Below the pieces are notes generated by a model. The model saw nothing but the letters and a program-made list of their open reading frames with translations, was not told the origin of the DNA and did not search any database. The position numbers and the translations under genes are program-made. DNA of 53,498 nucleotides from a virus. This document shows, piece by piece, positions 26,601-52,729 of the stretch. The DNA lies in IMG/VR virus record IMGVR_UViG_3300031857_000256, positions 1 to 53,498 of that record; one strand, 5' to 3'. Every line of letters begins with the position of its first letter. The first letter of the stretch is position 1.

Positions 26601-29600
26601 AGTGGTGGTAATGTTGTTCTACAAAGTGGTTCGGCATTCGTTGGAGATGGAAGTGGTTTAACAAACATTAATATCGCTAACTTAGCGTTTCAAACTCCAA
26701 TATTAAAGAGTGGTTCGTTTACTGCATCAATTTCACCGGATAATGGATTTGTTGTTAATACATCAGCTAGTATTTGGGGTAATGTATATGTGGGCAATGA
26801 TTTAAAAGTTGCACATAATATAAGTGCATCTAATACCATATCTGCACAATTATTTACTGGTTCATTTAGAGGAACATATACATTCCAAGGAGTTGGACCA
26901 ACTGCATCTGCGGACTACGATATTTTAAGATACAACGAAACGCAAGGATATTATATTCCACAACCAGAAACTTCATTAACTGAAACGGTATCGTTTAATA
27001 ATATAAGTGATTTAACAATCGTTCACAATTTGGGAATCAGATATCCAGTTGTTCAAGTTTACGCAACTGGTTCCGAAGACCAAATTTTACCTGGTACTAT
27101 TAAATCAATTGATGAAGATACAATTCAAATTATATTTGCTGGATTAACTTCCGGACATGTTGTAATCGGTAGTGGTGGTTCTTTAATACAAGGTACAATT
27201 CAAGGTGATAGAGTATTCGGTACCGTATTATCTGCATCATATGCATTTAAAGCATCTTTTGCAGATAATGTAGCTGGATTTGATTCTGCATCATTATCTC
27301 AATTATCGGCATCTTTAGGAGATACTGCACAATATATAAGAAATAATCAAACCGCATCAATGAGTGTTGGTAGAGCGGTTTCTGCATCATACGCACTAAC
27401 TGCATCTTATGTTGAGAATTTGAGTGGATTGAATTTGGTTGAATATGTAAGAAATGACCAAACATCTTCAATGACTGTATTGAGTTCATCATTTGCAATA
27501 TCTTCGTCTTACGCACTTTATGCAGCGAATGCGGCAAATGTTGATACATCTAATTTTGTATTGAACTCACAAACCGCATCTATGTTAGTAGGTACGGCTT
27601 CATTTGCATATACTGCGAGTGTTGCTCTATTTGCATTAAATGCGGCAAATACTGATACCGCATCGTTCTTACAAATTAATAAAGACCAAACTATAAATGC
27701 ATCACTTACTATTAGTGGAAGTATAGGTGTAAGTGGTAGTATAATTGGAAATGGTGCAATACAAATAAATAATTTACCAACTGGTTCATCTGAAGAAGTT
27801 GTAATTTGGAATAGTGTAACAAAAAGATTAGAAAGAAGAAACGTAGCAGCGGCTGTAGGTTCTTCTGGTACATCTGGTACCGAAGGCTCTGGAGGTACAT
27901 CTGGTACATCTGGTTCATCTGGTTCATCTGGAAGCAGTGGCACTGCAGGAAGTAGTGGTACATCCGGAGAAGATGGCACATCAGGAAGTTCTGGTACATC
28001 GGGAACTGCTGGAAGTTCTGGTTCATCTGGTTCATCTGGAAGTTCTGGAAGTAGTGGAACTGCTGGTTCATCTGGAAGTTCAGGAAGTAGTGGTTCATCT
28101 GGAAGCAGTGGCACATCAGGAAGTTCGGGAACAACCGGGTCAGCAGGAACATCTGGTACATCAGGAAGCTCTGGTTCATCTGGTACATCAGGAAGTAGTG
28201 GCACATCAGGAAGTTCTGGAACCACTGGTTCATCTGGTTCATCTGGTAGTAGTGGCACATCTGGAAGTGGAGGCACATCTGGAAGTAGTGGTTCATCAGG
28301 AACTTCTGGAACCGCAGGCACATCTGGAACATCTGGAACAACCGGGTCAGATGGCACATCTGGAAGTAGCGGCACATCAGGAAGTTCTGGTACATCTGGA
28401 ACATCTGGAAGTTCTGGCACGAGTGGTTCATCTGGAAGCTCGGGTTCTTCTGGTTCATCTGGAAGTGGTGGTACATCTGGTACGAGTGGCACATCTGGTT
28501 CAACTGGAACTGGAGGTTCATCTGGTACGAGTGGCACATCTGGCACGAGTGGCACATCAGGAAGTTCCGGTTCATCTGGTTCTTCTGGAAGTGGAGGCAC
28601 ATCCGGTACATCTGGTAGTGCGGGTAGTGGTGGCTCTGCAGGTTCATCTGGTACGAGTGGCACTAGTGGCACATCTGGTTCAACTGGTAGTGGTGGTTCA
28701 TCTGGTACAAGTGGAAGTTCTGGAACCGGAGGCACAGGTGGTTCTGCAGGTACTTCGGGTAGTTCTGGTAGTAGTGGCACATCCGGTTCAACTGGTTCCG
28801 ATGGTACTTCTGGTATAGATGGTTCATCTGGAAGTTCTGGTTCATCTGGTACATCTGGAGAAGATGGTACATCAGGAAGTTCTGGTACATCAGGAACTTC
28901 TGGAACTAGTGGCACAACCGGGTCAGCGGGTACTTCTGGTTCATCTGGAAGTAGTGGAAGTTCTGGTTCATCTGGTTCATCGGGAAGTTCGGGAAGTAGT
29001 GGTTCATCTGGTACAACTGGTTCTGATGGTACATCAGGTAGTTCGGGTTCATCTGGAAGTTCAGGAAGTAGCGGCACGAGTGGTTCATCTGGCAGTAGTG
29101 GTACAACAGGTTCATCTGGTTCATCGGGAAGTTCAGGAAGTAGTGGAAGTTCTGGTACATCTGGAACTGATGGCTCGACTGGTTCTGCAGGTACATCGGG
29201 AAGCTCTGGCACATCAGGCACAACTGGTTCAGAAGGTACATCTGGAAGTTCTGGAAGTAGTGGAAGTTCCGGACAAGATGGTACATCAGGAAGTTCAGGA
29301 AGTAGTGGTTCATCTGGTAGCTCTGGAAGCAGTGGAAGTTCTGGTACATCGGGACAAGATGGCACATCGGGACAAGATGGCACATCTGGAACTGATGGCT
29401 CAACTGGTACTGCAGGTTCGAGTGGCACATCGGGAAGTTCGGGTACAACTGGTTCAGAAGGTACATCAGGAAGTTCTGGTACGCAAGGAAGTAGTGGTTC
29501 ATCTGGAAGTTCTGGAAGTGCTGGTTCATCTGGCTCATCTGGAAGCAGTGGCACATCTGGAAGTACTGGTTCTTCAGGATTAAATGGAACATTCTTCGGC

Positions 29601-33533: not shown

Positions 33534-36500
33534 ATGACGAATTTGGGTAGTACAGCAAATGGTTTAAATCAACTAAGCGCAAGCTTGGTTTCTTTGTTTG
33601 TAAGTGGTAGTAGAATTGCCAACTTTTCATCGGCATCGGTGAGTGTTGTTGGTCCTTTTTCTGCTTCCGGTGTTCAAACAAACGTAATTGGTGTAACCAA
33701 TAATGGTGCTCCTCTTGAATTAAGAGGTAATGTCCAAATTAGTGGTTCCGTAACATCTTCACTTTTTAGAGGTGATGGTAGTGGTTTATTTAATCTATCA
33801 GCGGAAGCTTTAGGAGATTTGAATCAGTTAAAATCTGGTTCAGCAACAGCAAATATATCGCCAAATAGAGGATTGGTAGTAAATGTACCAACATCTATTA
33901 GTGGTGGATTATCTGTTAATGGTAATTCTAATATAACTGGCTCTCTTACAATCACTTCAAATCTTAACGTAAGTGGTAGAATAACAACAACTGAAATTTC
34001 TACCGTATTAATATCTTCATCGGTAATATTTTCATCAGGTTCAAATAAATTTGGTGACAATGTTTCTGATAATCATCAATTTACCGGTAGTGTAGGTATA
34101 AGTGGCTCAATATTTGTAACGGGAGATACAATACCAACCGATAATTCAACAAATGAAGTTTTAGTATTAAATACAACAACTGGTAGAATTAGTAGAAGAT
34201 TTGCAGCAGCAAGTTCTGGTACATCAGGTACCGGTGGTACATCTGGTACTTCTGGTAGCTCTGGAAGTAGTGGAAGTTCCGGTTCATCTGGTTCTTCTGG
34301 AAGTGGTGGCACATCTGGTACATCAGGAAGTTCTGGTTCTTCAGGTTCTTCAGGAACAAGTGGTACATCAGGAAGCTCTGGTTCTTCCGGTAGTGGTGGA
34401 ACGAGTGGCACATCAGGAAGTAGTGGAAGTTCCGGTTCATCTGGTTCTTCTGGTAGTGGAGGCACAAGTGGTACATCCGGTAGTGGAGGCACAAGTGGAA
34501 CATCTGGTAGTGGTGGTTCTTCGGGTTCATCTGGTAGTAGTGGAAGTAGTGGTTCATCTGGAAGTAGTGGCACATCTGGTTCAGCAGGAACTGCTGGCAC
34601 ATCTGGTAGTGGTGGTAGTAGTGGTACTGCCGGCCAATCCGGAAGTTCAGGAAGTAGTGGTTCATCCGGAAGTGGGGGCACATCTGGAACAACTGGTACT
34701 GCCGGCACAGGTGGTACATCTGGTCTGACCGGTGTAGGTGGTACGGCAGGTACATCAGGAAGTTCTGGTTCATCTGGCACATCCGGAAGTAGTGGTAGTA
34801 GTGGCACATCAGGAAGTGGTGGTTCATCTGGTTTAACTGGTGGCGGTGGTGCTTCTGGTAGTAGTGGTACATCGGGAAGTAGTGGCTCATCTGGAAGTTC
34901 GGGTTCATCCGGTAGTGGTGGTTCATCTGGTACATCTGCAAGTGCAGGTACCGGTGGAACGGCTGGTACTGCAGGTACGAGTGGCACATCTGGAAGTAGT
35001 GGCTCATCTGGTACATCGGGAAGTGGTGGTTCATCTGGCACATCTTCAAGTGCAGGTACAGCCGGTACAGCTGGTACATCTGGAAGCAGTGGTTCATCTG
35101 GAATCTCTGGTTCTTCTGGTTCATCAGGTTCATCTGGAACTTCAGGTAGTAGTGGTTCATCTGGAAGTTCCGGTTCAAGTGGACAAGCGGGTTCATCTGG
35201 AAGTTCAGGAAGTAGTGGTTCATCCGGAAGTGGGGGCACATCTGGAACAACTGGTACATCAGGTTCATCTGGAAGTGCAGGCACATCTGGTACTAGAGGA
35301 ACATCGGGAAGTGGTGGTTCGTCTGGTTCATCTGGTAGTGGTGGAACGAGTGGCACATCTGGTTCTTCTGGTAGTGGTGGAACGAGTGGCACATCTGGTA
35401 GTGGGGGCACATCTGGAACAACTGGTACCGCAGGTTCTGGAGGAACATCTGGATTATTGGCATTAACGGGTAATACTGATAATGGTGTAATCACATTAAA
35501 TGGAACTGCACCAAATGGTACAGTTGAAGCAAATTTAAGATTCGATGGTACTACGTTAGCGGTAACTGGTAACGCTACAATTAGTGGTGACCTTACTGTA
35601 AGTGGTACAACAACATATATTAATACAACAACTTTAAATGTAGGTGATAATATCATTACATTAAATGCAGATATTGGAGCATCAACTACACCAACTGAAA
35701 ATGCTGGTATAGAAGTTAAGAGAGGTAATGCAGCAACAAAGACATTCTATTGGGAAGAAGCAAATGATAGATGGTACGCTGAAGATGGATTGTATGTAGG
35801 TGGTAACGTAGTTCTTAGCGGAACTGTAGATACTGGACAAGGTGCAACGGAAGTTTACTTAATGAATCAAAATGTTCGTACAACGGACGCAGTGACATTT
35901 GCAACAGTTGATACCGGACAAGGAGCAAACGAATTATATGCAATGAACCAAAACGTAAGAACTACGGATGCGGTTACATTCGCAACGGTCGATACTGGTC
36001 AAGGTGCAAACGAATTATATGCAATGAACCAAAACGTAAGAACTACGGATGCGGTGACATTTGCAACCGTTGATACCGGCCAGGGAGCAAATGAATTGTA
36101 TGCAATGAACCAAAACGTAAGAACAACCGATACGGTACGTTTTGGAAAAGTTGAAATAGATGGTGCATCAAATTATATAGATACTAATACAGGATATTTC
36201 AGTATTACATCAGCAGGTAATGAAATAACATTAGGTGGTACAACCGGAAATATGTACATTAACTATCGTGCGGCATTAGGTAGTACTCCAACTGGATATA
36301 TTTGGAACGCTGGTAGTAGTACTTCATTTGCTACTCATACTATGGGTAGAATTGATGCGGATTCTTTATACGATAGAAATGATACAGGATATTATGTAGA
36401 CCCTGCTTCAACATCAAGACAAAATGTTATTAGAGGTACTCAAATAGCAACTGGATATCATTCATTAACTTCCGGTTATTATGCCGGTGGTGCAACTCCT

Positions 36501-39500
36501 TCAACCGGGTATCTAATTACCACAAATATTGATTATGGCGTATTTAATATGCCTATTGTTATTATTGAAGGATATGCATATGGAAATGGTGCACCTATTC
36601 ATTTACAAATTGTTTGGTACGCATATTCACCAGACCCTTCAGGATGGACAAGTGTATCTTATATAAACAAAGGTGGTTGGGATCCTGGTACCGTTTCTAT
36701 TGGTAGAAATGGTAGTGGTAAAGTTTGTATTCATCTTTCAAGTAACATTTACTATGGTAGATTTAATGTAAGAGGTATTTATGACCAAGGACATTCATAT
36801 TTAGAAAACTGGTCAATTACCGAAGCATCAACTTCCGGTTTATCTTTAATAAGAACTGTTGGTAGAGCAACAATGCAGACCGATATTAGTGGTACTGCTG
36901 CATCTGAAACTTTAGCAACTGTAACTAATAGAGGAAATATTTCAACTGGTGACATTTATACGCCAAATGCATCATCATATTTTAGAGCACGTTATACTGC
37001 GGGTTCTAACAACTATCATGGTTCATTTAACTGGTATCATCTTCAATTGGGTAATAATGGTGATAACTATATCATAGCAGGTAGAACTGCAACCGGCGGT
37101 AGATTAAGATTCTATGTAAATAATACATCCGATTTCACTTCAATCAATGGTACTGAAGGTATGAGATTAGATAGTGATGGTAGATTGTATTCTTATGTGG
37201 ATACTCGTTCACCATTATTTTATGACCAAGATAATACGGGATATTATTTAAATCCAAACGGCACTTCCAACTTACTTTATATAACAATGCCGCATAGAGG
37301 CAATGGTACTGAAAATATTTTAGTAAATGATGGTGGTAGTGAAAACTGGAACGCAATAAACATTAGAGGTGGTGCTAATAACCATATGGGTATTGGTTAT
37401 CATGGAACTTCAAGAGGTGTTTTTGGTAGAGATGGATTCTCAATTCATTTTGATGAAACTGATTCATTCCGTTTGCATACAAATGGTTGGGACACTGAAT
37501 TTGAAGTTACTGGTGATGGTAGAGCATGGTTAAAAGATAGACTTGGAATTAATACAACTGATTTTTCATATACATCTTCGGATAATAGTGCAGCTGTAGG
37601 TAGTAATCCAACCGCTAATAAATTATTTATAAATGGTTCAATACAATTAATAGGTAACAACGATGCGATTGTATTCGGTAGAGGTACTTCATCATTCCTT
37701 AAAGATGAAGAACTTGCATTTGGATGGGGTGGTGGATGGTTTATGCAGGATAGTACTTGGATTCGTTCTAGAGGTTCTAAAAATGTGTATGTAGATGCAT
37801 ATATAAGAGCACAGGGTTCATTTAGAGTTGGTAGTGAATACTCCATTTGGGGAACGTATGGTACATATAGTGCATATATTAGTAGATTAGCATATATTTC
37901 ATTGGACTGGGATGCTGCTTATGATTCGTATAGTAATCATGGTTTAGCATCAACTGACCTTAATGGAAACTTTAGTGATAGTGTATCTTTAAACTCATTT
38001 AATGATATTATTTTAAGACTTGATAGTAATAATAATAATACCAACTCTTATGTAAGATTTATGGATAATAGTGCCGGTAATGGGCAGTTTGCTTATATCG
38101 GTAGAGAAAATGGTTCATCTATAATGGAATTATATGGTGATATTTACGCAAATAGATTTTTAGATAGGAACGATAGTACATATTTCCTAAATCCGGCATC
38201 TGATAGAGATACCAGTATAAATGGATTTACTGCTAGAACTGTAGAAGGTACAAAAGGAACTTGGAAATATAATATTCCAAGATGGGCACACACATCAGAT
38301 TCTAACTATTGGGTAGGTTCTATGGGATGGGGAACTACTGACTTTAATTCAGTAATGACTTGGGGTAGTGGTTTCTTTGATACTTGGTCATCTCCTGCAA
38401 ATAGTCCTGGTGATGCATCACATTGGACAGGAATGCAAGCACTTCACTATACAAATGCATATAATAGTGCGTATGGATGGCAATTAGCAGGCGGTTCAAC
38501 CGATTCATTATGGTTCAGAAGATTCTGGCCAAATAGTGGCGGTTGGTTTAAAGTTGCGATGTATGATAATACACATTCGGCAAGTAGAGGATTCTATGCA
38601 TCTATTTACTATGATAATGATAACACAACTTATAGAGTAGACCCGAATGGTACTTCAAGATTATTAACACTTCAAGTAGATAATATAATTCAAGGTGGTG
38701 TTCAATACGCACAAAGATTGGATAACGTAGCTAGAACCGCTATAACTGTTGGTGGTAATGCTAGTACATTCTATCCAGTAATTCTTAATATTGGCGCGGG
38801 TGCAACTGTTCAACAATATGGTGAATTCGTAATTGAAAGAGGTGGATATGATGACCCAGGATACTCCGGAATTGGATTCAGTACAATGAATGCAAGATTC
38901 ACTGTTAAAGCGAGTGGATGGGGATTTGGTGCAACATATGAAAATTTAGAATATTACGGAAGAACATTTAATGGAATTGCAAACTGGCAACAAATTTCGG
39001 AATCATCTCGTTTGGTGATTTGGTTAAGAGGTGCAACCGTTTATTATTTATTTAATATTGTTGGTAGTACATCGGTACATTTTGCGAATGGCAGTGGTAC
39101 ATCATATTCTGAAACACATGGTAGTACATATACATTCTCACCAACTTCAACGATTTCCGATAAGGCATCGTATGAAAGATGGCAAGGTGGTAACATAAAA
39201 TATACCGGAATTATCTATTCGGACAGTGATGTAAGAGCACCGATATTCTCTGATATTTCAGATACAGGTTATTACATTAATGCAAATTCAACTTCTCAAC
39301 TTAATAGACTACAAATCAACAATGGTTTAATAGCGGGTGGTATTGATAATGGGTCAGTAATACTTTATAGAGCATCAAATCCATTTAGTTTAGGCGGTAC
39401 TGATGCTGTATTAACTTTATCCGATAGAAGTAACAATGACTGGGGATTAAGAATTGATAAGAGTGCACATGATTATGGTATGTACGTTGAAGTTTCAAAT

Positions 39501-42500
39501 GGTGCAACTTACGGATATGCTGTTAATAATGGTGGTGGTTGGGTATATAGAGTTCATGGTAATGGATATATCTACGCACCTTATTGGTATGATATTAATG
39601 ATACCGGATATTATGTAGACCCTAATGGTACATCTTCAATGGTGACGGTGTATGTGAGTGATTGGATTTATCAAAGAAGTTCAGGTGGTATGTATTGGAC
39701 TCCATATTCTAGAGGTATTGCATCTCCTGAAAACGTTGGTAATCCATATGGAACTGTAGCAACTACAAATGCTAATGGTAGAAATGGTTGGAACGGATAT
39801 GCTTTAGGTTCTCAAATGACATTGATGCATGACTACAATAATGGTGGTAACACTATGGGTATGCATGATACATCTTATGGTTGGATTTGGAGATGGATTA
39901 GAGATTCTTACTTTAGAGTAGATAGAGGATATAGTGAATTCGCAAATAGTGCAAGAGCTCCAATATTCTACGATTCGGATAATACTGGATACTATATTAA
40001 CCCAGCTTCATTCACCGAAATTTATGGTGGATTACGAATGAGTGGTGGTCATGGTGATTCTACAATAAGAAACCGATTATTAGCATCTAATAATGGTGCT
40101 GGTACCGGTGTTGTTCAATTACAAATGTGGTGTTCTGAACCAGGTAATACTTGGGATTGGGCTGGATTTGGATATAACGTTGATAACACATATCATGATG
40201 GTTCTGGACCTTATTACTTTAGTAGACCTAATACTTCGTTTGGTCAAGCGTATTTTAGATTTAGTACATCTGGACATATGTACGTTTACAACACAAATAC
40301 TTCTGGTACTCGTTATACTAATATGGAGTTCTATGCAAGTAACTGGGTATATGTAAACAACTATTTGGAAGCAGGTAACTCATTAAGAGCACCTATATTT
40401 TATGATTCAAACGATACATCTTATTATAGTAATCAAGCTAGTACAAGTATTTATAATGTAATTGGTACAAATAAGCTTCGTGCGGACACTAATAGAAACT
40501 ATAATGATGGTAATGGTTGGTGGGGACATGACCCTTATGGATATGGCTGGGGATTACCGCATGGTTCATTCAGAACATTAGAAATATCAACTTCTGGTAA
40601 CTTCTCTACTGAACCGGCAATGTTCCGTTTACACCAATGGGGTTCTGGTTCTCCGGAATTCTGGAAACCACAAGGTACAACACTTTATTTAAGAGAAACT
40701 CCAATTGGCGGTAATATTAAACACTCTAACTGGTTTACTCGTTTCTATGTACAAAGATACATTGAGACTGATGAATCAATGAGAGCACCGATATTCTATG
40801 ATACTGATAATACTGGATACTTTACGAATCCAGCTGGACGTTCTAGGCTTTCCGAAATCGATTATGGTGATGGCTCTTATTATTGGAGAAGTGGTTCTTG
40901 GGGTTGGAGACATCAAACTCCGTCTGGATATATTGAGTTTGGACCTGCGAATACTGGACATGCTCACATTTATACCGACCGTTCAAACTTCTACTTTAAC
41001 GTAAATGAATTATATGGTAATGGTTATCATGTAATAATGCATAACTTATGGTGGGGTAACACTTACTTTGGTAGTGGTGGTGATATGTATGCAACTATTT
41101 GGTATGATACAAATGATACCGGATATAGATTAGACCCGAATGGTTCTTCAAGACTTAACTTTGTTCATACAAATAACTTGTACATTAGTGCGGGTAATAT
41201 GTTGTATAGTGATTCGGGTGGATGGCAAGGTGAATACAATAAATTACAATGGCACTCATCTCACGCTTATTGGCAAAGACTATCCGGTGGATACTTCATA
41301 ATGAGAAGGGGTGATGGTAATGATAGAAACTATTTTAATGATAGTGGTGATATATGGATGGCTTATTTAGGATGGATGTCATCTCACTTAAACCAAAACG
41401 TAAGAACTGATGCGGGACCAACTTTTGCAGAAGTTTATAACAATGGTTGGTTTAGAAATAATAGCAATGGTACTGGACTCTATAATCAAAATAGAGGAAT
41501 GCACTGGTACACTAATAATGGATATTGGAAATCAGCGGGTGGTGGATATGGATATGGTGGTATTCAATTCTATAATAACTACGAATCTGATAGTAGAGGA
41601 TATGCTGGATATTGGGATGGTAGTGGTTTCGGTATGTTGAACTCATCTGGTAACTGGCAAATTCGTATTGAATATGGTAACGCTCATATGGAGTTGTATC
41701 GTATTACATATATGAACGATGCTAGACCATATATAACATACGATAGAGATAATACTGGATATTATTCTGACCCTAATGGTACTACTAATATGTACGCAAT
41801 TACCGATTATACTCGTAGAGCGGCATTTATGTTAGGTAGGTCTAACACCAATCGTAGAGATATTACTGGTGATAGTAACTATTGGACAGGTACACAAGGA
41901 TGGGGTACTGGATATGGTAACTGGGATAATGCTTGGTCTGGTGGATTTAATGGATGGGATATATGGGGTGGTGGAACTGCTCACCCTCAAGGCGGTGGTT
42001 ATGTTCACGCTCAAGGTATCGTATCTGGTCAACACTATTCAACTTCAGATGGTGGAGCGGGATATGGTTGGATGATGGTAGGTGCAGCAGATGCAACCGC
42101 AAATAGATATTGGGCTAGAGGTAAGTGGGGCGGTGGTGTATCCGGTTGGAGAGAATTCGTAATGAGTGATTCTAACCCTGGATATTATCTGTACGCATAT
42201 ATTATGTATGATTCCAATAATACAGGATATTATTGTGACCCTCAATCTTATTCACAATTTAGTAGTGGTGAGTTTAACAACTATGTAAGAGTAGCTAGAA
42301 TAGATTTCATTGGAACTGGAGGCAACTCTGGACAAGGTACAAACGCTTATAATATCTTCCAAGAAGGTGGTGGATGGAGTTATCCTTATCCGGATTTAAG
42401 AATCGCATATCACACAGGTCTTAAATTAGGAGCAAATGCTGGTTCTTATGAAGGAACTAGAGTTTATTCCGATTATGATATGAGTGATTTGTGTTTCACT

Positions 42501-43187
42501 TTAGCAGGTTCATCAAATTATTCATTTAAATATAAGTGGCAATATACGGCAACAGCTGGATATTATTCAGATTATAATGGTGCACACTGGTATCCAAACT
42601 ACGCATCATCTTATGGTTCATGGAGAGCTGATGGAAGTAGGAATGGATGGTATGGTATCAGTATTGGTACCGGAAATCAACCACATTTAATGTTTGATGG
42701 TAGTGGTAATGGTGGTATGTACATTCAAGACTATGGTAGATGGACATTTTATCATTCATTAGGAAACAATTGTACTGGTTTTAATACATCATCAACATCT
42801 TCATCTTATGGTATTTATGTTGAAAAAGGAATTTACGCAACGGGTGATGTTGTTGCATATTCTGATAGAAGAAAAAAAGAAAACATTGAAACTGTTGACA
42901 ATCCTTTGGATAAATTATTAAGATTAAGAGGTGTTTGGTATAACAGAATTGATGATGAAACCAAAAAAAGAAACATTGGTGTAATTGCACAGGAAGTTGA
43001 TGAGGTATTACCTGAAGTAGTAACTTATGCGGAAGATGTTGATGAATATGGGGTTGCATATGGTAACTTTGCAGGTTTGTTTATTGAAGCAATTAAAGAA
43101 CAAAACGAAATTATCAAAACTCAACAAAAAGAAATTGAAGAATTGAAAGAAATTGTAAACAAACTAATACTTAATAATAAAGGATAA
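33534..43187 (+). CDS. Giant tail fibre protein 3 with C-terminal S74 self-cleaving chaperone, 3217 aa
   Basis: Parts in order: residues 1-225, beta modules shared with giant fibre 2 (GDGSGLFNLS, GSATANISPN, SGSNKFGD, QFTGSV); 229-641, a proline-free collagen-like GSS/GTS tract without FFG interruptions; about 645-760, a beta domain; 766-873, four 27-residue repeats with NQNVRTTDAVTF; about 940-2910, twelve 'YD-x-[ND]-[ND]-TGYY-x-[DN]-P' modules, each followed by a different aromatic- and glycine-rich domain; 3110-3217, a Peptidase_S74 intramolecular chaperone with AYSDRRKKENI and GVIAQEVDEVLPEVV and a C-terminal coiled coil (EIIKTQQKEIEELKEI). By analogy with endosialidase-type fibres the chaperone trimerises the fibre and cleaves itself off before S3110. 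This is probably a main host-recognition fibre. The following gene's ribosome-binding site overlaps its stop codon. Confidence 0.88.
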   Translation: MTNLGSTANGLNQLSASLVSLFVSGSRIANFSSASVSVVGPFSASGVQTNVIGVTNNGAPLELRGNVQISGSVTSSLFRGDGSGLFNLSAEALGDLNQLKSGSATANISPNRGLVVNVPTSISGGLSVNGNSNITGSLTITSNLNVSGRITTTEISTVLISSSVIFSSGSNKFGDNVSDNHQFTGSVGISGSIFVTGDTIPTDNSTNEVLVLNTTTGRISRRFAAASSGTSGTGGTSGTSGSSGSSGSSGSSGSSGSGGTSGTSGSSGSSGSSGTSGTSGSSGSSGSGGTSGTSGSSGSSGSSGSSGSGGTSGTSGSGGTSGTSGSGGSSGSSGSSGSSGSSGSSGTSGSAGTAGTSGSGGSSGTAGQSGSSGSSGSSGSGGTSGTTGTAGTGGTSGLTGVGGTAGTSGSSGSSGTSGSSGSSGTSGSGGSSGLTGGGGASGSSGTSGSSGSSGSSGSSGSGGSSGTSASAGTGGTAGTAGTSGTSGSSGSSGTSGSGGSSGTSSSAGTAGTAGTSGSSGSSGISGSSGSSGSSGTSGSSGSSGSSGSSGQAGSSGSSGSSGSSGSGGTSGTTGTSGSSGSAGTSGTRGTSGSGGSSGSSGSGGTSGTSGSSGSGGTSGTSGSGGTSGTTGTAGSGGTSGLLALTGNTDNGVITLNGTAPNGTVEANLRFDGTTLAVTGNATISGDLTVSGTTTYINTTTLNVGDNIITLNADIGASTTPTENAGIEVKRGNAATKTFYWEEANDRWYAEDGLYVGGNVVLSGTVDTGQGATEVYLMNQNVRTTDAVTFATVDTGQGANELYAMNQNVRTTDAVTFATVDTGQGANELYAMNQNVRTTDAVTFATVDTGQGANELYAMNQNVRTTDTVRFGKVEIDGASNYIDTNTGYFSITSAGNEITLGGTTGNMYINYRAALGSTPTGYIWNAGSSTSFATHTMGRIDADSLYDRNDTGYYVDPASTSRQNVIRGTQIATGYHSLTSGYYAGGATPSTGYLITTNIDYGVFNMPIVIIEGYAYGNGAPIHLQIVWYAYSPDPSGWTSVSYINKGGWDPGTVSIGRNGSGKVCIHLSSNIYYGRFNVRGIYDQGHSYLENWSITEASTSGLSLIRTVGRATMQTDISGTAASETLATVTNRGNISTGDIYTPNASSYFRARYTAGSNNYHGSFNWYHLQLGNNGDNYIIAGRTATGGRLRFYVNNTSDFTSINGTEGMRLDSDGRLYSYVDTRSPLFYDQDNTGYYLNPNGTSNLLYITMPHRGNGTENILVNDGGSENWNAINIRGGANNHMGIGYHGTSRGVFGRDGFSIHFDETDSFRLHTNGWDTEFEVTGDGRAWLKDRLGINTTDFSYTSSDNSAAVGSNPTANKLFINGSIQLIGNNDAIVFGRGTSSFLKDEELAFGWGGGWFMQDSTWIRSRGSKNVYVDAYIRAQGSFRVGSEYSIWGTYGTYSAYISRLAYISLDWDAAYDSYSNHGLASTDLNGNFSDSVSLNSFNDIILRLDSNNNNTNSYVRFMDNSAGNGQFAYIGRENGSSIMELYGDIYANRFLDRNDSTYFLNPASDRDTSINGFTARTVEGTKGTWKYNIPRWAHTSDSNYWVGSMGWGTTDFNSVMTWGSGFFDTWSSPANSPGDASHWTGMQALHYTNAYNSAYGWQLAGGSTDSLWFRRFWPNSGGWFKVAMYDNTHSASRGFYASIYYDNDNTTYRVDPNGTSRLLTLQVDNIIQGGVQYAQRLDNVARTAITVGGNASTFYPVILNIGAGATVQQYGEFVIERGGYDDPGYSGIGFSTMNARFTVKASGWGFGATYENLEYYGRTFNGIANWQQISESSRLVIWLRGATVYYLFNIVGSTSVHFANGSGTSYSETHGSTYTFSPTSTISDKASYERWQGGNIKYTGIIYSDSDVRAPIFSDISDTGYYINANSTSQLNRLQINNGLIAGGIDNGSVILYRASNPFSLGGTDAVLTLSDRSNNDWGLRIDKSAHDYGMYVEVSNGATYGYAVNNGGGWVYRVHGNGYIYAPYWYDINDTGYYVDPNGTSSMVTVYVSDWIYQRSSGGMYWTPYSRGIASPENVGNPYGTVATTNANGRNGWNGYALGSQMTLMHDYNNGGNTMGMHDTSYGWIWRWIRDSYFRVDRGYSEFANSARAPIFYDSDNTGYYINPASFTEIYGGLRMSGGHGDSTIRNRLLASNNGAGTGVVQLQMWCSEPGNTWDWAGFGYNVDNTYHDGSGPYYFSRPNTSFGQAYFRFSTSGHMYVYNTNTSGTRYTNMEFYASNWVYVNNYLEAGNSLRAPIFYDSNDTSYYSNQASTSIYNVIGTNKLRADTNRNYNDGNGWWGHDPYGYGWGLPHGSFRTLEISTSGNFSTEPAMFRLHQWGSGSPEFWKPQGTTLYLRETPIGGNIKHSNWFTRFYVQRYIETDESMRAPIFYDTDNTGYFTNPAGRSRLSEIDYGDGSYYWRSGSWGWRHQTPSGYIEFGPANTGHAHIYTDRSNFYFNVNELYGNGYHVIMHNLWWGNTYFGSGGDMYATIWYDTNDTGYRLDPNGSSRLNFVHTNNLYISAGNMLYSDSGGWQGEYNKLQWHSSHAYWQRLSGGYFIMRRGDGNDRNYFNDSGDIWMAYLGWMSSHLNQNVRTDAGPTFAEVYNNGWFRNNSNGTGLYNQNRGMHWYTNNGYWKSAGGGYGYGGIQFYNNYESDSRGYAGYWDGSGFGMLNSSGNWQIRIEYGNAHMELYRITYMNDARPYITYDRDNTGYYSDPNGTTNMYAITDYTRRAAFMLGRSNTNRRDITGDSNYWTGTQGWGTGYGNWDNAWSGGFNGWDIWGGGTAHPQGGGYVHAQGIVSGQHYSTSDGGAGYGWMMVGAADATANRYWARGKWGGGVSGWREFVMSDSNPGYYLYAYIMYDSNNTGYYCDPQSYSQFSSGEFNNYVRVARIDFIGTGGNSGQGTNAYNIFQEGGGWSYPYPDLRIAYHTGLKLGANAGSYEGTRVYSDYDMSDLCFTLAGSSNYSFKYKWQYTATAGYYSDYNGAHWYPNYASSYGSWRADGSRNGWYGISIGTGNQPHLMFDGSGNGGMYIQDYGRWTFYHSLGNNCTGFNTSSTSSSYGIYVEKGIYATGDVVAYSDRRKKENIETVDNPLDKLLRLRGVWYNRIDDETKKRNIGVIAQEVDEVLPEVVTYAEDVDEYGVAYGNFAGLFIEAIKEQNEIIKTQQKEIEELKEIVNKLILNNKG
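34218..35456 (+). repeat. Proline-free collagen-like Gly-X-Y tract of giant fibre 3 (413 residues)
   Basis: Every third residue is glycine, with Ser, Thr, Ala and Gly in X and Y. Triplets such as GSS, GTS, GGT and GTA dominate; there is no proline and no FFG interruption, unlike the tract in giant fibre 2. Codons are mixed (AGT, TCT, TCA, TCC for Ser). Confidence 0.9.
35829..36152 (+). repeat. Four tandem 81-bp units in giant fibre 3
   Basis: Four consecutive units of exactly 81 bp encode DTGQGAxE, then a Y-x-MNQNVRTTD stretch and V-x-F-x-x-V. Units 2 and 3 share long identical DNA stretches, which points to recent duplication. A diverged relative (LNQNVRTDAGPTFAEV) recurs near 41390. Confidence 0.9.
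36367..42300 (+). repeat. Twelve dispersed YD-NDTGYY-DPNGTS modules in giant fibre 3
   Basis: I count twelve copies of a roughly 20-residue motif YD-x-[NDI]-[DN]-[NT]-TGYY-x-[DN]-P-x-[GS]-TS. They are spaced about 200-450 bp apart and separated by non-repeated domains rich in Trp, Tyr, Gly and Asn. The motif is known from S74-terminated tail fibres, where it probably forms short stacked beta elements between shaft domains. Confidence 0.8.
42861..43187 (+). other. Peptidase_S74 intramolecular chaperone domain of giant fibre 3
   Basis: Encodes residues 3110-3217, beginning at the Ser of SDRRKKENI and including GVIAQEVDEVLPEVV. In endosialidases and related fibres, cleavage occurs just before this serine after trimer folding. 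The basic RRKK segment, the GVIAQEV strand and the terminal heptad helix are all present, so processing is expected to work. Confidence 0.85.
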
Positions 43188-46556: not shown

Positions 46557-47060
46557 ATGGCAGACAATTTAATATTACCATATGAGCAGATGATATTCAG
46601 GCAGTTTGAGCCAAAAATGAAGAATCGCTACTACATGGAAATGGCAGAAGTAGGTATTCCGGCATTTATGGTTAAAACCGCAAATAGACCTGAAATTCAG
46701 TTTGAAACTGTGAAGATAGACCATATCAACACTTATAGAAAGTTAAAAGGTAAAGGTGAGTGGCAGGATTTATCCGTGACACTTTATGACCCAATTGTTC
46801 CATCTGCAGCGCAGTTGGTAATGGAATGGATACGTTTATCTCATGAATCTATTACCGGACGTGATGGATATGCAGAATTCTACAAAAAGACTATTAACTT
46901 TTATATGTTAGGTCCAGTAGGTGATAAGGTTGAACAATGGACACTTCATGGAGCGTTCATTTCTAGAGCATCTTTTGGTGATTTGGATTTTTCGTCAACA
47001 AACGAACCAGTATCAATTGAATTAACACTTACATACGATTACGCAGTTCTTGAATACTAA
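46557..47060 (+). CDS. 19: Tail tube protein (T4 gp19-like), 167 aa
   Basis: Length equals the T4 family (163). The protein has the usual tube features: QMIFRQFEPKMKNRYYMEM at the N-terminus, IPAFMVKTANRPEI, KIDHINTYRKLKGKGEW and DLSVTLYDPIVPSAAQLVMEW, then YKKTINFYMLGPVGDKVEQW and ISRASFGDLDFSSTNEPVSIELTLTYDYA. These correspond to the conserved beta-sandwich and the 'D-S----V-I--T--YD-A' end of contractile tail tube proteins. An AAAAGGA ribosome-binding site lies eight bases before the ATG. It sits between sheath and the baseplate-family chaperone gene, as in the usual tail order, and is followed by a strong terminator. Confidence 0.95.
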   Translation: MADNLILPYEQMIFRQFEPKMKNRYYMEMAEVGIPAFMVKTANRPEIQFETVKIDHINTYRKLKGKGEWQDLSVTLYDPIVPSAAQLVMEWIRLSHESITGRDGYAEFYKKTINFYMLGPVGDKVEQWTLHGAFISRASFGDLDFSSTNEPVSIELTLTYDYAVLEY

Positions 47061-47166: not shown

Positions 47167-47931
47167 ATGAGTGAAAAAAATTATGATTTTCCAACGGAAG
47201 TATTAGACCTTCCATCAAAAGGATTAATATATCCAAAAGATAGCCCACTTGCATCGGGTAGAATTACAATCAAATATATGACAGCAAAAGAAGAAGATAT
47301 ACTTTCTTCTGCAAATTTGATTAAAAAAGGTATTGTTTTAGATAAATTGTTTGAATCAGTTGTTGTTGATAGCGTTAATATAAACGATATTTCAATTGGT
47401 GATAAAAACGCAATTATTTTAGCAACAAGATTGTTAGGATATGGTCCTGAATATAACGTTTCTTTTTATTCAAAAAAGAAAAATACTACTTTGGAAGCAA
47501 ATATAGACCTTTCAAAGGTGAATGTTAAAGATATAGATTATTCATCTTTCAATAATAAAAATGAATTTGAATTCGTTACACCTATCGGCAAGAATAAGAT
47601 AACATTTAGACTTCTTACACATGGTGATGAAAAATTGATTGATAGAGATATACAGGCTTTAGAAAAATTGAATAAAGATACTTCATTTGAAATCACTACC
47701 AGATTGAGATATATGATTAAAGCGATTGATGGTAATGCAGATTTAGGATTTATTACAAAATTTGTTAATAATTCATTTTTGGCTAAAGATAGTAAAGCAT
47801 TTAGAGATTATGTTAAAAAAGTTTCTCCAGATATGGACATGGTGTTTGAATTTACACATGAAGATGGGGAATTGGAGGTGGTGCCCATTCCAATGGGCGT
47901 GACCTTTTTTTGGCCTTCCGAAGAATCATAG
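47167..47931 (+). CDS. T4_baseplate-family protein (gp26-like), tail assembly role, 254 aa in frame 0
   Basis: The N-terminus DFPTEVLDLPSKGLIYP, then LASGRITIKYMTAKEEDILSSANLIKKGIVLDKLF and IGDKNAIILATRLLGYGPEYNV, is the signature of the T4 bacteriophage base plate protein family (PF12322; T4 gp26-like), which acts in baseplate hub assembly. The rest is charged alpha/beta, ending GVTFFWPSEES before a TAG. T4 gp26 has 208 residues. The zero-frame end overlaps by 29 nt a second open frame (to 48124) whose product looks like the natural continuation, with a T7 tract in the overlap. Position between tail tube and tape measure is where lambda G/GT-type tail chaperones with programmed frameshifts are found, so it may be the equivalent gene. 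Family call fairly firm; frameshift discussed separately. Confidence 0.75.
   Translation: MSEKNYDFPTEVLDLPSKGLIYPKDSPLASGRITIKYMTAKEEDILSSANLIKKGIVLDKLFESVVVDSVNINDISIGDKNAIILATRLLGYGPEYNVSFYSKKKNTTLEANIDLSKVNVKDIDYSSFNNKNEFEFVTPIGKNKITFRLLTHGDEKLIDRDIQALEKLNKDTSFEITTRLRYMIKAIDGNADLGFITKFVNNSFLAKDSKAFRDYVKKVSPDMDMVFEFTHEDGELEVVPIPMGVTFFWPSEES
47905..47911 (+). other. T7 tract, candidate frameshift site
   Basis: Seven T in a row, read in frame 0 as ACC-TTT-TTT-TGG. The downstream frame is open only from 47903 (after a TGA at 47900-47902) and frame 0 stops at 47929-47931, so any switch must occur within these 29 nt. A +1 or -2 slip on the T tract joins the frames. A sequencing error (one T too many) would give the same picture. 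Confidence 0.55.
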
Positions 47932-48124
47932 TGCATTACTTCATACTCAAATCTTTGATATGGTTGAGTATAGTAATGGATTTTCAATGATGGAATTATA
48001 TAAAATGCCAACTTATTTAAGAATGTTCTACTACAATAAATTGGTAGAATCAAAGAAAAAGGAAGCAGAACAGGCTAAAAAAGCACAAAATAACACAGGT
48101 AGTTCAAAAGTTAGGTTTAGGTAA
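47912..48124 (+). CDS. Frameshifted C-terminal extension of the gp26-like gene, 70 codons
   Basis: In the +1/-2 frame relative to the 47167 gene, an open frame reads GLPKNHSALLHTQIFDMVEY, MELYKMPTYLRMFYYNKLVE, and then a charged helix (KKKEAEQAKKAQN) to TAA at 48124. The central 'MPTYLR-FYY-KL-E' followed by a Lys/Glu helix is like the C-terminal part of tail/baseplate assembly chaperones. Only one in-frame ATG lies early (47960), with no clear ribosome-binding site and with conserved-looking sequence before it, so expression by frameshift from the upstream gene is preferred (318 residues in total for +1, 319 for -2). A terminator stem starts inside its last codons, showing that this is the true end of the unit. 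Alternatives: independent start at 47960, or a sequencing error in the T7 tract. Confidence 0.6.
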   Translation, partial: GLPKNHSALLHTQIFDMVEYSNGFSMMELYKMPTYLRMFYYNKLVESKKKEAEQAKKAQNNTGSSKVRFR

Positions 48125-48438: not shown

Positions 48439-50853
48439 ATGGCAGAGGTTAGGAATCTTACTCCAGAAGAACTGGAAAAACAAAATAAACTACTCAGAGA
48501 GCGTGATGAAATCATGCAACGTCTTGAGGAGAGGAATAAGCGTATTGCCACAGCGGGAGCCGATGAAATAAAACGTTTAGAAAAACGAAATCAAAAAGAT
48601 AAAGAGCATCTCGATAATATTGGAAATCAATTAGATGCTATAACTGAAATAACAGATAAGGTTGAGGACTATGCGGACTTTTGGAAAAAAGCAGCGGAAA
48701 AACAACAGGATTATTTAGACCTTCAAGAAGATTTTGGAACATCGTTTGCAAAATTATCACCACAGGTAAAAAATTTATTAGTTTCTCAAGAAAAGGGTGG
48801 TGGTGCATTTGCTGCAATTACCGCTAGAATTTTAGATATTAAAAAGAAAGAAATTAATGCAAGTGGTGATGAATTGGCATCATTGGAATCAAGAAGAGCA
48901 GAATTAGAAAAGATAAGACAAACACAAATTGATTCAGCAGATAGTCTTGCATTTGAAAAAGAATCATTTTTTGGTATAAGTGATGCAGCTAAACGAAGAC
49001 AAGAATTTCAATCATCAATAGTTGGATTATCGGAAGAAGATAAAAAATTAGCAGAAGAAATTTTTGAAAGAAATCAATTATTACTTGCACAACAAGAAAG
49101 ATATGTTGAGTTGAAATCTCAACTAAATGATATTACAAATTCATTACCGGAAGGTTTGAGTAATCTAGTATCTGGTATAACGTCATTGGTAAAAGGAATT
49201 GCAAAAGGTTTAGGTCCTGTTGTAATTATAGCAGGGTTAATATCACTTGCTATAAAGGAATTTACCGAACTAAATAGTGCAGCCAAAAAATTTAGAGAAG
49301 AAACTGGTTTAACGGCAAAGCAAACAAAGGATGTAGATAATCAGGTTAAGAGTATTAGACATGAGTTTGCGGATTTAGGTGTAGAAGCGGAAGATGTATA
49401 TGAAAGTGTAAAGGCGTTAAAAAGCGAATTTGGAGACTCTATACCATTTACCAAAGGAATTGTTTCATCTTTAACTGTGATGAATAAAAACTTTGGAATT
49501 GCACAATCTGATGCAGCAGCTGTTAATATGATTTTTCAAAGTATGGCTGGATTAACTGCACAAACTGCACAAAATGTTTCCATGCAATTGGTAGACCTGG
49601 CACAAATGTCCGGTGTTGCACCATCACAATTATTTAAAGATATCGCAGAATCTGCCGAAGAGTCTTACAAATATTTTAAAGGTGATATAAATGCGTTAGG
49701 AAGAGCGGCAATAGAAGCTAGAAGATTGGGTACTAATTTAAAAAGTGTTCTAAAAACAACAGAATCTCTTTTAGATTTTGAAAACGGAATTGAAAAGGAA
49801 TTAGTAGCGGCAACGTTTGTAGGTGGGCAATTTAATTTAACGCAAGCTAGAGCATTGGCATTTGCTGGTAAAACTGTAGATGCACAAAAAGAAATATTAA
49901 GGCAGGTACAAAGAACAGGTGACTTTAGGAATAAAGATGTATTCACTCAAAGAGCATTAGCCGATGCAGCCGGTATGTCTGTTGAAGAAATCAGTAAACA
50001 ACTTACAATGCAAGAAAGGTTAGTTGGACTGAGTGATGAGCAAAAAAAGTTAGTAGCTGATGCAATGGATAAGGGATTAAGTCTTACGGACTTAAGTGAT
50101 TCACAATTGCAGGATAAAGTTAAAGAATTAGCAGCACAAAAAGAAATAGCAGATAGTGTTACTAAAATGGAAAACGCATTCAAAGGAATAGCTGCTTCGT
50201 TGGGTACTGCTGTTGTACCATTATTGGAAGGATTAACACCGGTAATTACAATTTTAGCTGAAGGATTTGGATTCATATTTAAAGTATTAAATTATGTTCC
50301 AGGATTATTCCCAGCGATTATAGCAGGATTAGGTGCTATGTATATCATGTCTAAAAAAGTTGCAATTGCACAACAAATGGCAGCAATTGCAAAAGTATAT
50401 TCTACATATGGTGCAATGCCGTTTATTGGAGTTGCATTAGCGGCAGGTGTAATTGCGGCTATGATGGCATCGATGGGTAAAGCTAAGAATGTGGGTGATA
50501 TGGCAATAACTGATGGTGGAAAAACTAGAATATCGACACAAGAAGGTGGAATATTTGCCCCAAGTTCAAATGACCAAATTGCAGTTGGACCGGGTGTAGT
50601 TGATAGACTTGATAGATTAAATCAGGCCGGGAAATTGGGAGCAGCATCAGCCTTACCATTTGCAGGAGGTGTCGCCACATCACAAGCTATTGGTATCCTA
50701 GTTCAGGAAATGAAAGCATTAAGACAGGACATGAATTCCGGTAAAATAAGAACCAATACTTATCTAGATGGACAAAAAGTTACAACTGGAATTGCAGTAG
50801 CAAGTGAACAAAGTACGAGAAATAACTTCTCTTACGGACAAAGACTTTTATAA
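48439..50853 (+). CDS. Tail tape measure protein (T4 gp29 position), 804 aa
   Basis: Residues 5-110 form a long coiled coil rich in Glu, Lys and Arg (EKQNKLLRERDEIMQRLEER). A first hydrophobic segment occurs near residues 250-272 (LGPVVIIAGLISLAI), a helical middle follows with repeated Gln/Ala-rich segments, and a second hydrophobic stretch lies at about 610-680 (YVPGLFPAIIAGLGAMYIM and IGVALAAGVIAAMMASMG). This pattern, coiled coil plus membrane-active hydrophobic helices and an Ala/Gln-rich body, is typical of tape measure proteins, which set tail length and help DNA entry. Position after the tube and chaperone genes fits. T4 gp29 has 590 residues; a length of 804 would predict a longer tail if scaling holds. 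Its C-terminus (NFSYGQRLL) probably contacts the baseplate hub. Confidence 0.85.
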   Translation: MAEVRNLTPEELEKQNKLLRERDEIMQRLEERNKRIATAGADEIKRLEKRNQKDKEHLDNIGNQLDAITEITDKVEDYADFWKKAAEKQQDYLDLQEDFGTSFAKLSPQVKNLLVSQEKGGGAFAAITARILDIKKKEINASGDELASLESRRAELEKIRQTQIDSADSLAFEKESFFGISDAAKRRQEFQSSIVGLSEEDKKLAEEIFERNQLLLAQQERYVELKSQLNDITNSLPEGLSNLVSGITSLVKGIAKGLGPVVIIAGLISLAIKEFTELNSAAKKFREETGLTAKQTKDVDNQVKSIRHEFADLGVEAEDVYESVKALKSEFGDSIPFTKGIVSSLTVMNKNFGIAQSDAAAVNMIFQSMAGLTAQTAQNVSMQLVDLAQMSGVAPSQLFKDIAESAEESYKYFKGDINALGRAAIEARRLGTNLKSVLKTTESLLDFENGIEKELVAATFVGGQFNLTQARALAFAGKTVDAQKEILRQVQRTGDFRNKDVFTQRALADAAGMSVEEISKQLTMQERLVGLSDEQKKLVADAMDKGLSLTDLSDSQLQDKVKELAAQKEIADSVTKMENAFKGIAASLGTAVVPLLEGLTPVITILAEGFGFIFKVLNYVPGLFPAIIAGLGAMYIMSKKVAIAQQMAAIAKVYSTYGAMPFIGVALAAGVIAAMMASMGKAKNVGDMAITDGGKTRISTQEGGIFAPSSNDQIAVGPGVVDRLDRLNQAGKLGAASALPFAGGVATSQAIGILVQEMKALRQDMNSGKIRTNTYLDGQKVTTGIAVASEQSTRNNFSYGQRLL

Positions 50854-50854
50854 T

Positions 50855-52729
50855 ATGCCAACATTATTAGAATTATTTAAAACACAAAGAATATCGGAAG
50901 GAACTAATGCCGGAAAAACGGTAGAAGAAGCATACTCTGTCCAAAATAGTAAAGATGTTCAGATACAAACTACCAATCCAATATTACAACCACTTACTGA
51001 AAAAATAAATAAAAGAAGAAAAGATACTATACGATTAAAAGAAACTCGTTTAGAAGAAGAAACCGCAGGATTGAAAGCATTTGGTGATACTGCAAAACTT
51101 GTTCTTTATGGTGGTGATTATTTCAGAATTATCAATGGTACAACTCGTTCTAAACAATTAATGTTAAGAAGTATAGGAGCAAGTGGTGCTGGATTGGCCG
51201 ATAGTCTAACCGATAAAATTGGTAGTGCGGTAGGAAATTTAGTAGGTGATAAAATTTCAAATTTATTTTTAAAAAAAGAAGATAGAGTACCACCAAAACT
51301 TGATACTAGAGCATTGGGTACTGATATATTAGCGGATGTTGCTAGTAGAACATTGGGTAGACTTTTACCAGAACCGATGATACCTTCAAAAGTTGCGGAA
51401 GAATTTGAAAAAGGTAGAGCAAAAAAAGAGCAGGATTTTATCCATGAGTATGATATTGATAAAAAAATCATACGATTAAAAAATAAAAAAGGAATACCCA
51501 AACTTATAGATGGTTTATTGAAAAATAATAAAGACATAATGGGTCAGACTAAGGATGTTTTAATGTCCACCGCCGGCACTATTGCAGGGGGATTAGTTGC
51601 TGGTGGTATTGGTAAATTGAGCAGTTTGATTTTTAATAAAAGAAAAAATAAAAAAGGTGGAAGTAATCAAACCACACAACCAACAACATCAACGGGATTC
51701 AAATGGTCATCTGACCAACCATATTCGGCAAAACGTAATATAGCAACATTAAAAAATCCGGAACCATTTGATAGAAACGATTTATCTACTGTATTTTTAG
51801 AAGCTAAAATATCAGCTTATGAATCTATTACTGGCCAACGAGTTCAGAGACCAGGAGAAGCGCCATTATCATTACAGTTTGGCCAAATTGCTCAAATTGG
51901 ACCAAATCCAATTTTAGAAAGTTTGAAGTCAGAGCCTATAAAATATTCCGATTATGATAGAATTACTAAAGAAAATAGATTTAAAAAGAGAGGTATGAGT
52001 GATGGAGCAGATGCTTTGAATATTATGAACAGTATAGTTTATAGTGGACAATCTGCGACATTAGATTCTGCAGGTAATAGTGCAGATAGTTATGATTATA
52101 TACCATTGAAATTCTATTCCATATACAACAATGAAACTTTACAATTTAGATGTACAATCGCAGATTTATCGGAAACATTTACTCCATCTTGGGAAACTAA
52201 TAAATTTATAGGTAATCCTTTTTCTTTTTACACATATAGTGGTATTGAAAGAAGTGTGACGTTTAGTTTTAAAGTATTTTCTTTAAACTTAATGGAGCAT
52301 CAATTTAATTGGGAAAGAATTAATGAATTAGCATCATACACATACCCACAGGACTATAAAGGAATAAGTGGTGCCGTTGTACCACCAATTTTAAAAATTA
52401 CAATTGGTAATTTATATAAAAATAAAGAATGTTTTATTGATAGCTTATCATATACGGTTGATGAAACTACTCCTTGGGAAATTGGTATGAATAAAAAATT
52501 AACATCACCAATTGTTCCTAAACTTTTTGGTGGATTTGTATATTCGGTGGATGAAAATAATCCGGCTGATGAATATAAGTTACCGATGATTATAAATGTG
52601 GAAATTACATTGAAATTTATTGAAGGAAGAAATAATACTTCACCAAATAGTATTCTATATGGATATACTGATTTTACGCCAAAAAATATTACTACACCAG
52701 ACCTAACCACAAATACATTTACAATTTAA
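50855..52729 (+). CDS. Baseplate-tail tube junction protein (gp48/gp54-like), 624 aa
   Basis: The ATG at 50855, one base after the tape measure stop, gives MPTLLELFKTQRISEG; an upstream ATG at 50804 lies within the tape measure gene and is rejected. Residues 1-300 are low in recognisable motifs, with a Gly/Ala-rich segment (GTIAGGLVAGGIGKL) and basic linkers. The C-terminal 190 residues have the features of tail-tube cap/initiator proteins: DYIPLKFYSIYNNETLQFRC, YSGIERSVTFSFKVFSLN, WERINELASYTYPQDYKG, PPILKITIGNLY and CFIDSLSYTVDETTPWEIG, ending with IINVEITLKFIEG. This beta domain with 'R-V-FSF', 'YP' and 'P--LKI--G' is shared by the gp48/gp54 group and related tube-baseplate adaptors. It is longer than T4 gp48 or gp54 (about 320-364 residues), so it may fuse roles. 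Confidence 0.65.
   Translation: MPTLLELFKTQRISEGTNAGKTVEEAYSVQNSKDVQIQTTNPILQPLTEKINKRRKDTIRLKETRLEEETAGLKAFGDTAKLVLYGGDYFRIINGTTRSKQLMLRSIGASGAGLADSLTDKIGSAVGNLVGDKISNLFLKKEDRVPPKLDTRALGTDILADVASRTLGRLLPEPMIPSKVAEEFEKGRAKKEQDFIHEYDIDKKIIRLKNKKGIPKLIDGLLKNNKDIMGQTKDVLMSTAGTIAGGLVAGGIGKLSSLIFNKRKNKKGGSNQTTQPTTSTGFKWSSDQPYSAKRNIATLKNPEPFDRNDLSTVFLEAKISAYESITGQRVQRPGEAPLSLQFGQIAQIGPNPILESLKSEPIKYSDYDRITKENRFKKRGMSDGADALNIMNSIVYSGQSATLDSAGNSADSYDYIPLKFYSIYNNETLQFRCTIADLSETFTPSWETNKFIGNPFSFYTYSGIERSVTFSFKVFSLNLMEHQFNWERINELASYTYPQDYKGISGAVVPPILKITIGNLYKNKECFIDSLSYTVDETTPWEIGMNKKLTSPIVPKLFGGFVYSVDENNPADEYKLPMIINVEITLKFIEGRNNTSPNSILYGYTDFTPKNITTPDLTTNTFTI

Follow-up and report, generated by a model that had tools for sequence, protein, structure and literature searches.

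The overlapping frames and their relatives

The locus considered here lies in a stretch of 53,498 nucleotides (nt) of viral DNA, IMG/VR record IMGVR_UViG_3300031857_000256, which we refer to as the window. In it, a gene of the T4_baseplate family, resembling gp26 of phage T4 (frame A), is overlapped at its 3' end by a second frame (frame B) that is very probably joined to it by programmed ribosomal frameshifting. A preliminary description, made from the sequence alone, had the gp26-like gene end at 47931 and the second frame open at 47903, with a run of seven T (T7) in their 29-nt overlap, and all of this was confirmed on the window sequence. The 3' end of frame A is VPIPMGVTFFWPSEES, and its reading at the junction is ACC TTT TTT TGG CCT, with ACC TTT TTT TGG at 47902-47913. 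In the +1 frame (equivalently -2), a TGA at 47900-47902 shuts the 5' side; the frame opens at 47903 and ends at 48124, so that only the 29 nt of 47903-47931 are open to a change of frame. On the 3' side of the tract (47912-48121), frame B encodes 70 amino acids (aa), GLPKNHSALLHTQIFDMVEYSNGFSMMELYKMPTYLRMFYYNKLVESKKKEAEQAKKAQNNTGSSKVRFR, and the fused product computed from the window sequence is 318 aa long, in line with the earlier estimate. The gene also sits where it had been placed, between tail tube and tape measure, with a gp19-like gene on its 5' side and, by synteny with phage immuto, an open reading frame (ORF) in the tape-measure position on its 3' side (Table 1).

Table 1. Parts of the two-frame locus and its neighbours in the window.
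Feature	Positions	Strand	Basis
Frame A, short tail assembly chaperone (TAC-N), T4_baseplate / gp26-like, 254 aa	47167..47931	+	PF12322, PHROG150, AlphaFold model
Shine-Dalgarno (SD)-like core GGAGG (extended GGAGGTGGT, 47874-47882), slip site 26 nt downstream	47874..47878	+	predicted anti-SD pairing, lineage conservation
Probable RNA hairpin, 8 bp, 4-nt loop, GTGCCCAT-TCCA-ATGGGCGT, directly 5' of slip site	47881..47900	+	RNAfold
Slip site, zero-frame TTT TTT T (UUU-U, proposed tRNA-Phe +1 re-pairing)	47905..47911	+	conserved TTT-Y (Y, pyrimidine)
Zero-frame stop TAG, end of short form	47929..47931	+	spacing kept across lineages
Frame B, C-terminal extension of long form (TAC-NC), three-helix model; stop 48122-48124	47912..48124	+	conservation, homology to extension of -1 phages
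Tail tube protein, gp19-like (context)	46557..47060	+	PHROG tail tube E 9.3e-31; PF06841 24.9 bits, under cut-off 28.2
Probable tape measure protein, 804 aa (context)	48439..50853	+	synteny with annotated tape measure of Flavobacterium phage immuto

The arrangement recurs far too widely to be due to chance. Our relatives are a sample and not a census, locus counts are among the matches listed (at most 80 loci per search), and to correct for relatedness we also counted 132 lineages, that is, groups below 85% amino-acid identity. Among 335 loci with both domains, B lies in the +1 frame in 331, in the -1 frame in 4 and in the frame of A in none; the first 150 loci with both parts show the +1 arrangement without exception. 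Frame B is thus conserved as the C-terminal extension that the preliminary description had thought plausible, and the two parts as one continuous frame, which it had named as evidence against a shift, were not seen, same-frame matches of B being insignificant only (E 0.056 and 0.16, in a wider set of relatives). Three other samples have yielded IMG/VR records (L002-L004) with a junction identical to that of the window, and contigs from independent samples also read seven T, which answers the doubt raised about the length of the tract. The +1 arrangement is furthermore present in sequenced phages of Flavobacterium, Microcystis, Streptococcus, Bacillus and Listeria. The zero-frame stop falls 6 or 8 codons past the slip site in 121 of the 132 lineages, and the layout of the overlap is therefore conserved as well. 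Alishewanella phage Slicko01 (region 529-2720) is arranged differently: several ORFs separate its tail tube gene from the T4_baseplate-like gene, with no clear B frame behind it, and this may be a further variant, such as separate short and long genes.

Frame A matches PF12322 (32.4 bits, cut-off 24.5, E 9.5e-8) and the baseplate hub family PHROG150 (E 7.7e-9), to both of which T4 gp26 and gp51 also belong by match. Along the 282 positions of PHROG150, gp26 ends at 235 while gp51 reaches 280, which makes gp51 the longer form of the same protein. The remark that the T4 gene is not described as frameshifted therefore tells only half of the story, as T4 nevertheless has both forms, encoded by the separate paralogous genes 26 and 51 (both PF12322). 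The extension domains may be connected stepwise: B of the +1 group aligns with B of the -1 group (hhalign probability 97%) and the latter with the C-terminus of gp51 (77%), the direct comparison of +1 group B with gp51 being weak (32%). Direct profile comparison of the fused protein with T4 gp26 or gp51 singly gave no signal, and the PHROG150 alignment spans the full fused length, but B adds only 0.3 bits to it. The residues of B right after the slip are conserved (GL...YR..LH.QIF). Modelled separately with AlphaFold, frame A reached a predicted local distance difference test (pLDDT) score of 90, with BFVD matches to the baseplate hub subunit of SP-15 and to T4-like baseplate proteins, and frame B gave three helices at moderate confidence (pLDDT 76). 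No confident homologue was found in the PDB by sequence or fold; the best solved chaperone in the fold search was the HK97 tail assembly chaperone 2ob9, a weak match (E 2.3, probability 0.30).

The proposed slip site and the probable direction of the shift

A zero-frame TTT followed by T or C is present in all 203 distinct +1 loci, which is the pattern of a UUU-pyrimidine +1 site. The preliminary description had looked to relatives for a conserved slippery tract; TTT-Y is indeed conserved, while the T7 homopolymer itself is dispensable, exactly T7 being kept in 198 of 245 distinct loci and 36 having T3 only, mostly as T3-C-T3. Of the two slip codons, one reads TTT in 128 of 131 cases and the other in 114 of 114, versus 64-86% TTT at seven other Phe columns, and TTC is almost absent. 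Schwartz and Curran (1997) reportedly found UUU-pyrimidine sites to be prone to +1 shifts, and the preference for UUU over UUC at the slip codons fits such sites.

The base immediately 5' of the tract separates the two directions. It is T in 3 of the 203 +1 loci, where 102 would be expected from the codon use of the genes themselves. By parsimony over the 132 lineages, the codon in question changed at least 65 times and became T-ending only 3 times, and in none of the 168 columns is the share of T-ending codons lower (median 0.51). T stands at this base in each of the ten readable -1 relatives (about 10 -1 loci were examined), where it completes the -1 heptamer T TTT TTC/T (read by eye in LR756511, GGT TTT TTC). 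We read the avoidance as reflecting that a +1 site must not turn into a -1 heptamer; it is the opposite of what polymerase slippage would prefer. The same Phe-Phe position thus serves as the shift site, +1 or -1, across distant relatives. Sites of the +1 kind are TTT TTT TGG (the window, Mel-JY01), TTT TTT TAC/TAT, TTT CTT TGG (immuto group), TTT CTA TTC (LR756508), TTC TTT CGT (Streptococcus GXN1), TTT TTT CAC (SP-15) and TTT TTT AGT (LIS04), with TTT CTA TGG and TTC TTT TAC in further relatives. The -1 sites, T TTT TTC or T TTT TTT, are those of 121Q, PA5oct, Atu_ph07, XacN1, RAS14, Vibrio 2.275, XaC1, Phosso, LR756511 and the IMG/VR contig L167. The window does not have the -1 heptamer (X XXY YYZ), as C precedes the tract and B is in +1, in agreement with the earlier statement that a shift of +1 or -2 and not -1 is required. 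Re-pairing of P-site tRNA-Phe by +1 on UUU-U or UUU-C is possible at every +1 site listed (in LIS04 on the first of the two TTT), and given the sites of relatives +1 is the most likely direction.

Judged on sequence comparison, we put at about 0.82 the probability that this tail-assembly gene makes a short and a long chaperone by +1 ribosomal frameshifting at a UUU-pyrimidine site. Most ribosomes would stop at the zero-frame TAG and release the 254-aa short form. A minority, with tRNA-Phe in the P site on UUU (47905-47910), would slip by +1 onto the overlapping UUU and read on in frame B, yielding a long form of about 318 aa with a helical C-terminal domain. If the two divide the work as lambda gpG and gpGT do, the short form would cover the tape measure protein, while tail tube subunits would be brought in by the long form.

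Putative signals upstream of the slip site

Predicted anti-SD pairing between about 36 and 26 nt before the tract exceeds that of synonymous shuffles of the same genes (z -12.9, 132 lineages). An SD-like element (-5 kcal/mol or below) is present in 117 of the 132 lineages, a level that 7 of 8 -1 loci tested do not reach. The window site GGAGGTGGT has a predicted anti-SD pairing of -13.8 kcal/mol and is the strongest 9-mer on the + strand; in other loci the element ranks first in 24 of 113, with a median rank of 4 among anti-SD matches. At its positions GAG is preferred over GAA, whereas GAA dominates most other Glu positions. Were the U tract the partner of the element, A should be favoured here, so the anti-SD fits that role better. 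As a start signal for an internal gene the element was rejected, as no consistent start codon follows it and none at all in 45 of 117 cases. In the window, 21 gene starts show no SD (mean -1.65 versus a background of -2.57).

Between this element and the slip site we consider an RNA hairpin probable. The region from -24 to -2 surpasses composition-matched shuffles in stability by a mean of 2.4 kcal/mol across relatives, and the region from -27 to 0 is more stable than synonymous shuffles by 1.7 kcal/mol. Strict stems occur in 70 of the 132 lineages against 49.7 expected. The pairing register differs between lineages, with two main registers, and conserved Pro-x-Gly residues account for part of the stability. 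Covariation over all lineages pointed to no single register, and together with the modest enrichment of strict stems this is why the hairpin is graded as probable; Rfam and tRNA scans of the window returned no matches. If formed, the hairpin would place the SD-like element a few bases from the slip site. On 70S ribosomes, a hairpin upstream of and adjoining the E site promotes +1 frameshifting, dampens -1 frameshifting and resembles an internal SD duplex in its effect (PMC6321510), which by analogy supports the action proposed here, namely that the SD-like element about 26 nt upstream and the intervening hairpin probably raise +1 slipping through a duplex on the trailing side of the ribosome. 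T4 gene 26 offers a curious parallel to this element and hairpin at its 3' end (5803-5840, minus strand), where GAGG is accompanied by a perfect hairpin (CTCAAAG-AGTT-CTTTGAG) that spans the Phe-Phe codons shortly before gene 25 starts.

The host is relevant to how such an element could act. Relatives come from bins labelled Flavobacteriales, Winogradskyella, Flavobacteriaceae and Sphingobacteriales, as well as from bins of other phyla, and Flavobacterium phage immuto is among them; a Bacteroidota host for the window is likely. It is conceivable, if a long shot, that an unusually strong internal SD bridged by the hairpin controls the shift, such that only ribosomes with a free anti-SD (e.g., those without bS21) make the long chaperone efficiently and the ratio of forms reads the state of the host ribosomes. 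In the rpsU leader, through which bS21 regulates its own synthesis, anti-SD pairing is below -13 kcal/mol (PMC9976891), and the -13.8 kcal/mol of the window element falls near that range, the two figures being from different calculations.

Competing explanations and known systems

Several points weigh against +1 slippage as set out above. In the RF2 (release factor 2) context UUU_U shifts far less readily than CUU_U, for which tRNA-Phe modification may be the reason (PMC5009743); at TTT CTT TGG in the immuto group, CTT-T could serve for slipping too. Neither UGG nor UAC, one of which follows the slip in the zero frame, is an obvious stall codon, and known internal SD stimulators lie closer to their slip sites than the SD-like element does to its own. 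The likely host ribosomes, those of Bacteroidia, keep their anti-SD sequestered (PMC9976891), a fact that either counts against the SD reading or adds to its interest. Finally, one close relative alone (IMGVR_UViG_3300020442_002272) combines TTC TTC at the slip position with a B frame in -1, perhaps through the gain or loss of one base in the C run past the stop.

The same T7 tract would also allow the ribosome to shift by -2, as documented in phage Mu (PMC5009743), with one extra Phe in the product. Every T7 locus, the window among them, lets the P-site tRNA-Phe move two bases back and pair anew, and such loci are the majority, but re-pairing of this kind is impossible at the same position in relatives with TTT CTT, TTT CTA, TTC TTT T or TTC TTT C (L159, L161, L162 and L242). 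Sites of the types TTT CTT, TTT CTA and TTC TTT exclude -2 re-pairing and polymerase slippage there, and for the window we regard a -2 shift as unlikely. Transcriptional slippage, in which RNA polymerase would omit one U on T7 and the resulting U6 mRNA would be read in a single frame, strikes us as a little less likely again. A T7 tract with a probable hairpin directly upstream is an architecture that can favour it (PMC5009743), yet it sits poorly with the T3-only loci, and a preceding T, by which the tract would grow to T8, is avoided and not favoured, as fits avoidance of the -1 heptamer.

That frame B is a small gene with its own start is how annotators list it, in whole or in part (e.g., Mel-JY01 WWT39326.1, SP15_046 and immuto35A_232). 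The window has no start codon in frame B ahead of its conserved region; the first in-frame ATG is codon 17 of B, and starting there would cost the conserved first 16 residues. Start codons ahead of the slip are likewise absent in 48 of the 132 lineages, the conserved residues directly after the slip argue against a separate start, and TTT-Y and the avoided T would be left unexplained, all of which makes this reading very improbable. Least credible of all is a sequencing or assembly error in the T tract that hides one intact frame: homopolymers are error-prone and the window is a metagenomic record, but the same phase is found in 331 loci, including isolates and sites free of homopolymers. Ribosomal +1 slippage at UUU-pyrimidine thus remains our preferred reading.

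The surroundings of the locus deserve brief mention. The 804-aa ORF in the tape-measure position (48439-50853) had no informative family match in profile searches of the window protein. The ORF on its 3' side (50804-52729, GTG start) overlaps it by 50 nt (50804-50853) in a different frame, and its true start is probably further downstream. Elsewhere the window holds three giant ORFs, at 7053-19601 (4182 aa), 20616-31496 (3626 aa) and 33534-43187 (3217 aa). The latter two contain long Gly-Ser-Ser/Thr collagen-like repeats, and the 3217-aa ORF has NCBIfam matches to collagen-like adhesins, all under cut-off, and a C-terminus that we take to resemble a tail-fibre intramolecular chaperone.

If correct, this reading adds a large, conserved +1 class to the tail-chaperone frameshifting of T4-type phages. 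Additionally, +1 and -1 relatives differ in the single base ahead of the Phe-Phe codons, which provides a directly testable rule for the direction of a frameshift, while phages that probably infect Bacteroidota and conserve the SD-like element could be used to test internal SD action on ribosomes that do not use SD for initiation. Annotations would need correction too: the extension is usually entered as a hypothetical protein of its own, and frame B or its 3' part appears in this form in the public records of immuto, Mel-JY01, SP-15, 121Q and XaC1. As far as could be checked, the +1 class, the one-base rule and the upstream element are new, and Vladimirov et al. (2022) may already cover part of this.

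Among known systems, bacterial prfB (RF2) is alike in that a P-site tRNA slips by +1 onto a U-rich sequence with an internal SD upstream; it differs in that the window has a sense codon after the slip and its SD-like element 26 nt away. Lambda G/GT shares the position between tail tube and tape measure and the pairing of a short with a C-terminally extended form. Lambda, however, shifts by -1 and the window, on our reading, by +1 at UUU-Y, and no significant sequence or fold link to lambda-type chaperones was found. With T4, frame A shares PF12322 and PHROG150, and gp51 has the extra C-terminal part, but T4 encodes the two forms in separate genes; the assignment of gp26 and gp51 as the short and long chaperones is credited to Vladimirov, Gautam and Davidson (2022). 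The link from the T4_baseplate family to G/GT, put forward as new in the preliminary description, had therefore already been made in the literature by these authors, as they are cited in passages of two later papers (PMC10885494, PMC12846349). In its passage citing them, the first of these, the PRFect paper, states that a short gene and a longer, fused one take the place of frameshifting in some T4-like phages (PMC10885494), and a passage of the second gives Vandenendeviridae -1 frameshifted T4-type chaperone genes (PMC12846349). The -1 jumbo phages (121Q, PA5oct) likewise shift at the same Phe-Phe position as the window and have a homologous extension domain; they use T TTT TTC/T with B in -1, whereas in the group of the window B lies in +1 and T is avoided ahead of the tract. 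From sequence comparison, one protein family thus appears to reach the same long form in three ways, by a +1 slip, by a -1 slip and by a second gene (T4 26/51).
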